Assembly: GCA_015055965.1 (NCBI GenBank)
Contig: SVHG01000008.1
Coordinates: forward strand, 1 to 64,000
Source: Clostridiales bacterium
GTDB lineage: Bacteria > Bacillota > Clostridia > Christensenellales > Borkfalkiaceae
Length of the DNA stretch: 64,000 nucleotides
Direction of reading: 5' to 3'
Shown here: positions 33,052 through 36,139 of the stretch, piece by piece
How the letters are laid out: each line of letters opens with the position of its first letter
Position numbering within the stretch: the stretch's first letter is position 1
Made by a program: the position numbers and the translations under genes
Notes under the pieces: generated by a model
Seen by the model: the letters and a program-made list of their open reading frames with translations, nothing else
The model's database searches: none
What the model was told of the DNA's origin: nothing

Positions 33052-34872
33052 CTATAATGTTATTTTTGTGCCTATATATGCGAGTATAACATCAACGTTA
33101 AAGGCTTCTTTGTTCTCGGTAAATATCGGTACTAGCTCGGCGTAAGAAGTCATCAGTTGTTCGACGTCCTCATCGATAACAGTTACATGCGCATTTACGT
33201 TGTTGGTGGACTTGACATCATCGTTGAGAGAATCGTAATAATCCTCTTGAACGAAGAGCATAGGAACTTGAATCATATGTACGGTATATTCCTGTGTAGT
33301 AGAATCGTAAGAAGTTACATACTGAGTTCTAAACTCAATATCAAAGCGTCTGGAGAATGACGCAAGCGAGAAACCTCCTACAGTTTTACTTTTCCATTCT
33401 TCGCTCAATCCGTTTACATAAAGCTTGGCAGCATTGTTTTGGGTAGCGGCAACATACTTGATAGAATTAAGACCACTCACGTTTTTGAGATTAAACCAAA
33501 GCGTATCAAAATTGACGGTAACACCAAGTTTCTCGGCGGTTTCGTTCACCTCATAGCCAAGCATTTTACCGGTATTCGTGTTGTAAAGCTCACAAATCGT
33601 ATTGGAAAAACCAACAAGACCGTCAGCCTTGTTACCTACGATAGAGGCATAGCTGTTAGTAATATAAAATTCAGCAGAGCTTGCGACGTCAACAGAAGAT
33701 ACGGTGAGGTATTCGTATATCTTGCCACTAATATCCCCATTGTCATCTCTTGCAATAGAGAACATAGCCCTTCTTGCGCCAAGATATTTGATGGCGAACT
33801 CATAGGCATTCTCTCTGACAGTATATGCGAGCGCATTTGCATCACCAAGCTGAATTCGTACACTCTTTTCACCGGTTTCGGCTATCATAGCCATAGCAAT
33901 CTGAGCGGTTACATTGCCGATTGTGGGAATGTTGGCGGTGTAATCAACAACATAATAAAGAACTTCACCGTCGAATTTAATAGCAATATTATAGATGCCG
34001 TTTTCAAACGTATAATGTGCTGTGTCTGCAGGATTTTGGTCGAAATAGTTGTTAAATGCAGTGATAGAGGTTGAAGAAATAGTTTCAACCACAGTCAATG
34101 CGTTGAAGAAAAGCATAGACTGATCTATGTTGTTAAGAACCATGTACCACTGTTCACCAAAACCGTAGGTAATATCCGATACATTCACGAAGTCGGAGTA
34201 ATCGGTAACGATATCCTCGGGTGCAACAAGGTTTTTACTGTAATCAAGTCTCATAGCTTCCGGAATATATGCATACGGATTGAGATTGTATCCGTTCAAA
34301 AGCGAGGCAAGAAGGCTCTTGATATCTAAAATCTTGTTCCATACCGCAAAATATTCTGTATTGCCGGTGATAGCCCTTTCAAAGTCTACTTCAATAACTT
34401 CATTTTGAGAAGAACTCCAACCTACAAACCTGTAACCCTCATAAGCTGGGGGATCAGGAATGGCAGCCTTACTACCGTATTCAACAGTCTGGGATGCTAC
34501 CGAACTTCCGCCCAATGTATTAAAGGTTACAGTATATTTCCGTTTAACGGCAGTTATCTTAGCGTAATACGTTGAGTTTTGAGTCGCTTCAGGGATTTCG
34601 ATAAGCACCTCCCCATCGGCAGACGCTGACCAACCTATAAAGGTGTAATCCCATTCATCCGTATCGCTCTTTGTATAACTGTAATTGGGGACAGAACCTT
34701 CTTCGACTTGCGCTGAAGAAATGGTGTTTCCATTTTCATCCACCCAAGTTATAGTGTACTTTGTTTTTTCAGGGTTATCTGAAGGGTCACCACTTTCGTC
34801 GCCATTATTACAAGCAGTAAAAATCATAAACGTGGCTAGCAAAAGACATAAGAGGTAAAGTAGCTTTTTCAT
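33052..34872 (-). CDS. lipoprotein with InlB-type beta repeats
   Basis: 606 residues with a lipoprotein signal (FTACNNG, Cys21). Two Listeria-Bacteroides (InlB B / Flg_new) repeats follow: one around YTITWVDENGNTISS to GWSASADG, and one around YTVTFNTLGGSSVAS to FVGWSSSQ. The remaining about 430 residues are an unrecognised, probably beta-rich domain with no visible catalytic motif. It is a surface-exposed adhesin or binding lipoprotein by analogy. AAGGAG precedes the ATG. A structured leader with a terminator immediately upstream suggests control by transcription attenuation. Confidence 0.8.
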   Translation of the reverse strand: MKKLLYLLCLLLATFMIFTACNNGDESGDPSDNPEKTKYTITWVDENGNTISSAQVEEGSVPNYSYTKSDTDEWDYTFIGWSASADGEVLIEIPEATQNSTYYAKITAVKRKYTVTFNTLGGSSVASQTVEYGSKAAIPDPPAYEGYRFVGWSSSQNEVIEVDFERAITGNTEYFAVWNKILDIKSLLASLLNGYNLNPYAYIPEAMRLDYSKNLVAPEDIVTDYSDFVNVSDITYGFGEQWYMVLNNIDQSMLFFNALTVVETISSTSITAFNNYFDQNPADTAHYTFENGIYNIAIKFDGEVLYYVVDYTANIPTIGNVTAQIAMAMIAETGEKSVRIQLGDANALAYTVRENAYEFAIKYLGARRAMFSIARDDNGDISGKIYEYLTVSSVDVASSAEFYITNSYASIVGNKADGLVGFSNTICELYNTNTGKMLGYEVNETAEKLGVTVNFDTLWFNLKNVSGLNSIKYVAATQNNAAKLYVNGLSEEWKSKTVGGFSLASFSRRFDIEFRTQYVTSYDSTTQEYTVHMIQVPMLFVQEDYYDSLNDDVKSTNNVNAHVTVIDEDVEQLMTSYAELVPIFTENKEAFNVDVILAYIGTKITL

Positions 34873-34889: not shown

Positions 34890-34925
34890 AAAAATAAAAA
34901 GTGCGGCAACCGAAGTTAACCGCAC
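34890..34925 (-). terminator. intrinsic terminator inside the lipoprotein leader
   Basis: On the minus strand GTGCGG and CCGCAC form the outer stem, AAC and GTT the inner stem, closed by a TTCG tetraloop, followed by TTTTTATTTTT. It lies directly before the AAGGAG of the lipoprotein gene, between that gene and its promoter. Confidence 0.8.
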
Positions 34926-35105
34926 CGAAAAACGCAAACTCCGATTGTCGCCAAACAAATTTAATAGAATTAGAGTATCTCTACCATAATCGCTATTCGG
35001 AATTTGTGCTTTTACCAAATTCTAAAAATGATTATGGCAAAAAAAGGGTATAATTATCCCATAAAGAAAAAGATACCGCTAATTCTACTATTAAATTTGT
35101 TTGGC
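34926..35105 (-). ncRNA. structured leader RNA or small RNA upstream of InlB lipoprotein
   Basis: The predicted transcript starts at about 35105 and folds into a nested rod. The outer stem pairs 35079-35105 with 34950-34973 (about 24 bp, one 3 nt bulge) and continues through AGATAC with GTATCT. An inner stem pairs GATTATGG (35030-35037) with CCATAATC (34984-34991), and a terminal stem pairs CAAATTC with GAATTTG. The terminator at 34890-34925 follows. It is either an attenuation leader for the lipoprotein gene or a stand-alone 6S-like RNA of about 215 nt. No known riboswitch class was recognised. Confidence 0.6.
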
Positions 35106-35111
35106 ATACTT

Positions 35112-35140
35112 ATTATACACTTTTTTAGAAAATATTTCAA
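35112..35140 (-). promoter_or_regulatory. promoter of the structured leader/lipoprotein gene
   Basis: On the minus strand, -35 TTGAAA (35135-35140) and -10 TATAAT (35112-35117) have a 17 bp spacer. The expected start coincides with the first base of the long leader stem. Confidence 0.75.
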
Positions 35141-35232: not shown

Positions 35233-35290
35233 AAAAATTAATATTCCATTTATTAAACACGCACCTGCTTTATTTGTAAGATTTACTTGC

Positions 35291-35423
35291 GGGACTTGAA
35301 TTCTTGCATTTTGCAAAGCAATCCTTCCATAACTCATTCTTTATGCTTTGCAAAACACTTCGCACAAGCCTAAAAACAGTGGGTGTCCACTGTTTTCCGG
35401 GCGCTCTTGTTCAAGTCCCTTCA
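35291..35423. other. inverted tRNA-Leu T-arm fragments
   Basis: GTTCAAGTCCCTTCA (35409-35423) matches the T-arm and 3' end of the neighbouring tRNA-Leu gene (35489-35503) in opposite orientation. GGGACTTGAA (35291-35300) is its inverted partner. It could be a tRNA relic or an old integration scar. Nothing else is recognised in this gap. Confidence 0.35.
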
Positions 35424-35443
35424 AATTACTTTATCACAACAAC

Positions 35444-35478: not shown

Positions 35479-35562
35479 GTGGTGCGGATGAAGGGACTTG
35501 AACCCCCACGTCGTGGACACTAGCTCCTAAGGCTAGCGCGTCTGCCATTTCGCCACATCCGC
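35479..35562 (-). tRNA. tRNA-Leu(TAG)
   Basis: 84 nt with encoded CCA. Acceptor GCGGATG pairs with CATCCGC. The anticodon loop CTTAGGA holds TAG. A long variable arm, as expected for tRNA-Leu, is present. Confidence 0.95.
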
Positions 35563-35608
35563 TTTTAACTATTAAATTTACAACCAGTAATACAAGGTCT
35601 TTTTTTTG

Positions 35609-35684
35609 TGGTGCGCCTTCGGGGACTCGAACCCCGGACCCACTGATTAAGAGTCAGTTGCTCTACCAACTGAGCTAAAGGCGC
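35609..35684 (-). tRNA. tRNA-Lys(CTT)
   Basis: 76 nt with encoded CCA. Anticodon stem ACTGA/TCAGT with loop CTCTTAA gives CTT. Confidence 0.95.
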
Positions 35685-35690
35685 ATTTAC

Positions 35691-35766
35691 TGGTGATCCA
35701 TCGGAGACTCGAACTCCGGACACCGTGATTAAAAGTCACGTGCTCTACCGCCTGAGCTAATGGACC
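35691..35766 (-). tRNA. tRNA-Lys(TTT)
   Basis: 76 nt with encoded CCA. Loop CTTTTAA gives TTT. Only 6 bp separate it from tRNA-Lys(CTT), so both lysine isoacceptors are processed from one transcript. Confidence 0.95.
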
Positions 35767-35780
35767 TTGTAAATTTTTAC

Positions 35781-35855
35781 TGGCTGGGGTGGCAGGATTT
35801 GAACCTACGAATGCCGGAATCAAAATCCGGTGCCTTACCGCTTGGCGACACCCCA
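35781..35855 (-). tRNA. tRNA-Gln(TTG)
   Basis: 75 nt with encoded CCA. Anticodon stem CCGGA/TCCGG with loop TTTTGAT gives TTG. Acceptor TGGGGTG is typical for Gln. Confidence 0.95.
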
Positions 35856-35869
35856 ACGCTGAAAAATAA

Positions 35870-35946
35870 TGGGGCGATAGAAGGGTTTTGAACCCTCGAC
35901 CTCCAGGACCACAATCTGGCGCTCCACCAATTGAGCTACTACCGCC
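35870..35946 (-). tRNA. tRNA-His(GTG)
   Basis: 77 nt including the encoded extra G at -1 and the discriminator C, both histidine identity elements. Loop TTGTGGT gives GTG. The top anticodon-stem pair next to the loop is an A-C mismatch. Confidence 0.94.
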
Positions 35947-35957
35947 GTATGCATTCA

Positions 35958-36034
35958 TGGCGCGCCTTGAGGGACTCGAACCCCCCACACACGGCTTAGA
36001 AGGCCGTTGCTCTATCCATCTGAGCTAAAGGCGC
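35958..36034 (-). tRNA. tRNA-Arg(TCT)
   Basis: 77 nt with encoded CCA. Stem ACGGC/GCCGT with loop CTTCTAA gives TCT. Confidence 0.95.
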
Positions 36035-36065
36035 ACGTTCGTGTGTGTGACGGCATACGCTTTTT

Positions 36066-36139
36066 TGGAGCGGGTGATGGGAATCGGACCCACGCAACCA
36101 GCTTGGAAGGCTGGTGTTCTACCATTGAACTACACCCGC
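36066..36139 (-). tRNA. tRNA-Gly(TCC)
   Basis: 74 nt with encoded CCA. Loop CTTCCAA gives TCC. It is the first gene of the cluster behind the promoter at 36160-36188. Confidence 0.95.

Follow-up and report, generated by a model that had tools for sequence, protein, structure and literature searches.

The locus considered here raises a simple question: what is the function of a near-consensus promoter that is followed, directly in front of a lipoprotein gene, by a long structured RNA and an intrinsic terminator? It occupies positions 34890-35140, and is read on the minus strand, of a 64,000-nt stretch from a member of the Borkfalkiaceae (contig SVHG01000008.1 of assembly GCA_015055965.1), hereafter the window. 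The first-pass annotation of this DNA had offered two answers, namely that the leader decides on termination as an undescribed riboswitch or protein-binding attenuator, or that the unit is a free, possibly 6S-like, RNA.

Promoter, leader and regulated gene

The promoter (35140-35112, minus strand) comprises a -35 element TTGAAA (35140-35135), a 17-nt spacer and a -10 element TATAAT (35117-35112), and agrees with 11 of 12 consensus letters. Counting 6 nt from the -10 element, transcription probably starts with the G at 35105, and the outer stem begins with this same base, as the first-pass annotation had held; a promoter with the same spacing lies upstream of most homologues. The leader thus placed is about 210 nt long (35105-34896, minus strand), rather than the 215 nt given earlier. 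RNA spanning 35106-34890 folds at -74.1 kcal/mol, against -40.3 +/- 4.0 in 200 dinucleotide shuffles (z = -8.55), none of which folded equally well.

The long nested rod described previously is borne out by folding and covariation (34950-35105, minus strand), but its supposedly continuous 24-bp outer stem resolves into 14 bp, a 3-nt bulge and 10 bp. With a further 8 bp these helices make up stem P1 (35105-35092/34963-34950, 35088-35079/34973-34964 and 35077-35070/34981-34974), and the bulge is a conserved AUA (35091-35089). There follow a small hairpin with a U tract, P2 (GGGAUAAUUAUACCC and UUUUUUU; 35060-35046), and a 10-bp stem, P3 (35039-35030/34991-34982), which carries at its tip the apical hairpin GAAUUUGGUAAAAGCACAAAUUCC (34999-35022). 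With its seven U inside the rod, P2, which is kept in the long type of the element described below, has the look of a pause site or a weak terminator. Instead of closing the apical hairpin, its 3' arm (35013-34999) can pair, as an anti-antiterminator, with the linker GACAAUCGGAGUUUGCGUUUUU (34949-34928), the switching strand of the leader. Beyond the linker lies the intrinsic terminator (34925-34896), built of GUGCGGUUAAC, a UUCG loop, GUUGCCGCAC and a U run at 34900-34896; a consensus terminator scan missed it, in our reading because its stem contains a one-base bulge. As first described, this UUCG-loop terminator stands just before the Shine-Dalgarno (SD) sequence AAGGAG (34886-34881) of the regulated gene (33052-34872, minus strand; ATG at 34872), which encodes a 606-aa lipoprotein (MKKLLYLLCLLLATFMIFTAC...) with Listeria-Bacteroides (InlB B) repeats (PF09479). 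Only 23 nt separate the U run from the ATG, which leaves no space for a second promoter.

Directly upstream of the element lies a cluster of seven tRNA genes (Gly, Arg, His, Gln, Lys, Lys, Leu; 35480-36139, minus strand), served by a full-consensus promoter, TTGACA-17-TATAAT, at 36188-36160 on the same strand. The region also holds a separate element of about 130 nt with internal inverted repeats (TTTTGCAAAGCA...TGCTTTGCAAAA; 35290-35425), which is found four times in the genome at 82-88% identity (the other copies at G000:C1:9536-9665, C10:12859-12990 and C17:145112-145246). The stretches around these copies also hold a tRNA-Leu cluster, tmRNA, tRNA-Arg and tRNA-Ser. Since, by eye, a copy of T-arm sequence flanks each of them, this repeat has the appearance of a very small element with the 3' ends of tRNA and tmRNA genes as its integration sites.

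Two architectures, their genes and their flanks

The suspicion that the RNA is undescribed was upheld by an Rfam 15 search with both architectures of the element, which returned no family at gathering score. The Rfam scans gave no T-box match, nor an RF00013 (6S) match at the element, and permissive scans yielded only weak matches below gathering scores, which we took as chance. No description emerged from the literature searched, and the supplements of PMC11109978, PMC8632094 and PMC8040213, which lay outside that search, may hold a candidate.

A DNA search revealed additional copies in the genome that holds the window, and matches in 144 of the 301 genomes covered from its family. A linker pattern, in which the variable linker position was unconstrained and the terminator played no part, retrieved at least 120 stretches from GTDB contigs; the 80 records listed among these matches are, by their titles, gut-type Clostridia MAGs or genomes. 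From the loci found by pattern and search we extracted 146 long elements, leaving out five odd ones, and 75 of these served to build a covariance model, R1. It matches three copies in the window's own genome, at least 39 of 200 genomes of the order and at least 71 of 291 of the class Clostridia, and in a sample of 199 genomes of the phylum, by a lower-bound count, the own genome only. All such counts are lower bounds, as the samples were drawn evenly from larger groups, matches were filtered strictly and the number of candidates was capped. Twelve genomes picked as rich hold 7-18 R1 matches each. The cultured Pumilibacter intestinalis CLA-AA-M10 is among the carriers, with a copy at locus L105; at L232 a second, poor match was set aside. 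A plasmid collection gave no match to the element, and a phage collection a single, unannotated record (L303, MT835503.1).

Weaker R1 matches proved to be a second, shorter architecture of about 133-200 nt (most 150-185), which lacks P2 and P3 and has promoter position, linker and terminator as in the long type, such that the two architectures share one 3' switch. A model of the short type, R2, finds matches in at least 79 of the 291 class genomes and in one of the 199 phylum genomes, again the window's own, where two further copies each stand 15-17 nt before a lipoprotein gene. The own genome therefore carries five copies, all before genes, four of which encode lipoproteins. Short elements also occur in tandem with no gene between them, three in L258 and two each in L259, L260, L261, L262 and L263, an arrangement known for some riboswitches.

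Both architectures are conserved at the level of structure. Across 37 pairs of the long type (P1, P3, apical hairpin and terminator), 93.0% of cells are paired and 24 pairs show changes in both partners; covariation scores 0.358, compared with 0.165 for shuffles that keep sequence relatedness (0/500) and at most 0.078 when the strands are slid. In the short type, 95.3% of cells are paired and 17 of 26 pairs have changed on both sides, with a score of 0.404 against 0.194 in shuffles of the same kind (0/500). Outer P1 is paired in 99.9% of cells across homologues (five of nine pairs changed on both sides), and the terminator helix in 97.5% (alignment A2). Conserved letters, several of them unpaired, lie in bulges and in the apical loop. 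Large portions of the rod vary freely, and the subtypes have few conserved letters in common outside apical arm and linker.

The element typically precedes a gene. Of 137 long elements, 102 have the start of an SD-led ORF (40 aa or longer) within 60 nt past the terminator, as against 7/125 on the divergent side and 55/685 at random points, and with a 120-nt limit the count is 126 of 145. Short elements have an SD-led gene within 110 nt in 37 of 68 cases, a lower count explained partly by their tandem copies; several of the others precede another element or a contig end. By simple in-house rules, 26 of 106 distinct downstream proteins are lipoprotein-like and 19 have an N-terminal CxxC, compared with 59 and 35, respectively, of 919 background ORFs under the same rules. 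Pfam assignments for 131 downstream proteins include BspA-type LRR_5 (25), Zn_Ribbon_1 (11) and MazE/AbrB-like families (5), together with many single families, an EcoRI-type methylase among them. The downstream gene set is not one metabolic pathway. A defence library searched against these proteins gave nothing general, with three families in one member each. In the phage record MT835503.1 the element (379-531) is followed by two ORFs; by our reading of them, one (382 aa) is methylase-like and the other (369 aa) is HNH-like at its C-terminus. They may form a restriction-modification or defence pair that the same switch controls; L110 and L114, too, have a related methylase gene behind the element.

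What lies downstream changes even between closely related copies. With six identical duplicate pairs left out, 41 pairs of elements are at least 81% identical, and in 40 of them the downstream 300 nt match at an unrelated level only (0.48-0.55, where random pairs give 0.51 +/- 0.02 with a maximum of 0.57); the one exception is L067/L127. Near-identical copies in unrelated flanks are the mark of a mobile element or cassette, and since near-identical elements stand before unrelated genes, the leader shuffles between loci. In the most recent pair, L034/L035, two elements from different genera are 98% identical; their similarity spans promoter and RNA, fades 50-75 nt upstream of the start and stops at the terminator. 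Divergence of the promoter spacer in older pairs makes the exact extent of the moving unit uncertain.

Competing pairings of the linker

The first-pass annotation had pointed to a possible pairing of 34926-34949 with the terminator stem that would exclude the terminator itself. Such a pairing can form, and the linker is the strand that switches: its positions 34947-34937 can pair with the arm and loop of the terminator (34917-34907), and its positions 34942-34928 with the apical arm. An antiterminator formed by rod stems pairing with the terminator was also sought and was not found; the linker fills that role. In the minimum free energy (MFE) fold of many elements the linker is paired to the 5' arm and loop of the terminator, and the terminator itself is not formed. 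When linker and terminator are folded together as the 3' segment, they gain more than 1 kcal/mol in MFE over the bare terminator; this holds for 98 of 146 long elements and for 57 of 68 short ones.

The linker-terminator pairing covaries in both types. Parsing succeeded for 137 of 166 elements (nine were dropped for unparsed linkers, mostly antisense matches, and 20 for terminators that were truncated or had another loop). In these, one variable linker position is either A, opposite terminator U in 55 and C in 4, or U, opposite A in 49, G in 23, U in 4 and C in 2. The pair is kept in 127 of the 137, though the terminator's own stem must change too. In alignment A2 the antiterminator helix is paired in 94.4% of cells and scores 0.160 against 0.094 (0/500 shuffles), with all 35 doubly changed cells in a single pair. 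The linker of the short type varies widely, and the terminator tracks it. Here an alignment-free test was used, as MAFFT left the terminator loops out of register: 38 distinct short linkers without the consensus AAUCGGAG pair with their own terminators at -11.5 kcal/mol, against -8.95 +/- 0.37 with swapped ones (0/2000), and the own terminator is among the best partners (median rank 6.5 of 38). Over the full set of 68 short elements the corresponding values are -17.6 and -13.9 +/- 0.35 kcal/mol. Shared composition accounts for part of this effect, as a control with reversed linkers likewise lay under its own shuffles (z = -4.1, where the true linkers gave -10.7). Taken across homologues, these elements combine an intrinsic terminator between promoter and start codon with a conserved, mutually exclusive antiterminator, the two hallmarks of a transcription attenuator.

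A third strand competes for the linker, namely the 3' arm of the apical hairpin. Complementarity between the two extends over 15 nt, with one mismatch in the window, and across 75 long elements 97.9% of the cells of this pairing are paired, against 28-60% when the strands are slid; these pairs are held more strictly than several local pairs of the apical hairpin. Covariation between the two strands is practically absent from the window's subtype, where 405 of 500 partner shuffles were equally good in a test that included several rows of antisense artefacts, and where swapping partners among long elements changed the paired fraction only from 97.9% to 97.8%. This is because the strands are near-invariant and most loci were found via an exact linker pattern. 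In the 68 short elements the strands vary together (-12.0 against -10.46 +/- 0.25; 0/1000), with a reversed-linker control at z = +0.6, and in the own genome's two short copies, by eye, apical GUAUUCUCUC matches linker GAGAGAUAC.

The linker stretches used by apical arm and terminator overlap at GGAGU, which makes the two pairings mutually exclusive. In a crude energy sum that ignores pseudoknot entropy and kinetics, the state that combines the apical-linker pairing with the terminator is the lowest in all 146 long elements. In the window the states differ little, at -74.3 kcal/mol for this state and -72.4 for the antiterminator, again as a crude sum in which pseudoknot entropy is ignored.

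The element as a probable attenuator and a possible mobile unit

We consider it likely that the element is a cis-acting transcription attenuator, riboswitch-like and of a class absent from Rfam. This reading draws on the conserved architecture, on the covariation of rod, terminator and antiterminator, on the complementarity of apical arm and linker, and on the position of the genes. The idea that the leader decides on termination is well supported, given that the antiterminator pairs covary, that the apical arm competes with them and that a gene follows most copies. We rate the class as new, and the kind, attenuator leaders, as already known. RNA polymerase would start at the built-in promoter and make rod, linker and terminator in that order. 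If the apical arm of the rod held the linker, then the terminator hairpin could form and transcription would stop after about 210 nt; a free linker would instead pair with the 5' arm and loop of the terminator, block it, and allow the downstream gene to be transcribed. Pairing by the apical arm would require the rod, about 40 bp long, to bend back far enough for its tip to meet the linker. Which strand takes the linker would be decided by a signal acting on the rod, be it a small molecule, a protein or an RNA. Strand order and energies suggest that the apical pairing is the OFF state; presumably the pairings act in the cell, and a signal exists. Ribosome-mediated attenuation through a small upstream ORF was discarded, since by eye there is no SD-led ORF and the leader starts with a stem at +1.

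A more specific version of the attenuator reading, and not an alternative to it, is that of a strict riboswitch, whose rod would have a small molecule as its ligand; since the genes form no metabolic pathway, this might be a signalling nucleotide. We give this somewhat less than an even chance. The expression platform is typical of riboswitches, as are conserved letters in bulges and apical loop and the tandem copies. Yet the rod is largely variable, the subtypes share little outside apical arm and linker, no known class is matched in Rfam 15, and the regulon points to no ligand, so that a protein or a trans-acting RNA fits equally. The covarying antiterminator speaks against a constitutive insulator, that is, a strong terminator with a fixed low leak and nothing sensed: such a device would suit the terminated state being lowest in every long element by the crude sum, but would have no need of a conserved antiterminator with covarying partners, and seems quite unlikely.

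The same covariation would serve no purpose in a free-standing regulatory RNA of about 210 nt, whether 6S-like or a base-pairing sRNA, to which the gene was a mere neighbour. Such an RNA would be in keeping with a promoter placed so that the rod-like fold begins at +1, with a terminator that closes the unit, with several conserved unpaired letters, and with the 35 of 137 copies that lack a gene close behind. Against it, most copies have a gene about 20 nt past the terminator, with no room for another promoter, and these genes differ; we regard it as improbable. The 6S-like form raised by the first-pass annotation is made less likely still by the lack of a family match, by several copies per genome (five in the own), and by a canonical 6S RNA elsewhere in the same genome (G000:C17:125518-125721; 55.6 bits, over the cut-off), which is its single RF00013 match. 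Finally, the unrelated flanks of near-identical copies in 40 of 41 pairs might recall a DNA-level repeat, MITE-like or an attC-like hairpin, in which promoter and terminator are incidental. The unit is nonetheless asymmetric (promoter, rod, linker, terminator), mostly points at a gene, and shows covariation of RNA type that includes mutually exclusive helices; no recombinase gene was noticed, and we hold this explanation to be very unlikely. An attC-like cassette, considered on account of the changing flanks, was dropped, there being no tandem gene arrays, and a promoter and terminator built in.

Read as an attenuator, the element has several known relatives in design. Terminator/antiterminator riboswitches likewise place a leader with sensor domain, switching strand and intrinsic terminator between promoter and gene, and occur in tandem, but the element has no known aptamer (no Rfam 15 match), precedes surface, zinc-ribbon and accessory genes rather than those of a single pathway, and shuffles. 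T-box leaders are long, structured RNAs with mutually exclusive antiterminator and terminator, in many copies per genome in Firmicutes; the element has these general features in common, but has no T-box match, and its genes are neither those of aminoacyl-tRNA synthetases nor amino-acid genes. With 6S RNA (RF00013) it shares a rod of about 200 nt with its own promoter and terminator, and differs in an internal region that is a junction with hairpins, and in being a multi-copy leader before genes. The processive antitermination RNAs put and EAR are cis RNAs that carry polymerase through a terminator, as the element could; its terminator, unlike theirs, itself pairs with the leader, such that no change to polymerase is required, and no Rfam match links them. 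The raiA-motif RNA, too, is found upstream of a gene, and resembles the element in that position. A further likeness is that raiA-motif RNA, or ModT, is a structured RNA of Bacillota (PMC11706538). The element differs in lacking an Rfam match to it, and in its multiple copies, variable genes and linker switch.

More tentatively, and with the balance of probability somewhat against it, the attenuator may be a mobile, self-contained regulatory cassette of promoter, sensor RNA and terminator, which would pass from locus to locus and from genus to genus in gut Clostridia whatever the gene behind it, and so put variable genes under one shared signal. If so, variable surface genes, zinc-ribbon genes and even restriction-modification genes would come under one signal via a three-strand switch. 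Terminated copies might then act on one another in trans, which is conceivable because all copies of a subtype share linker and apical arm.

Attenuator RNAs that have many copies per genome and a gene set outside any one pathway are rare, and tend to report signalling or stress. The element is present in about a quarter of the sampled Clostridia genomes, with up to at least 18 copies in one, mostly in genomes known only as MAGs, and its downstream genes include those for adhesin-like BspA/LRR proteins, lipoproteins and small zinc-ribbon proteins. That an entire promoter-switch unit should shuffle between genes is unusual in itself, and is the most unusual point of the element. Its signal, once found, would provide a handle on surface-gene switching in these gut bacteria.
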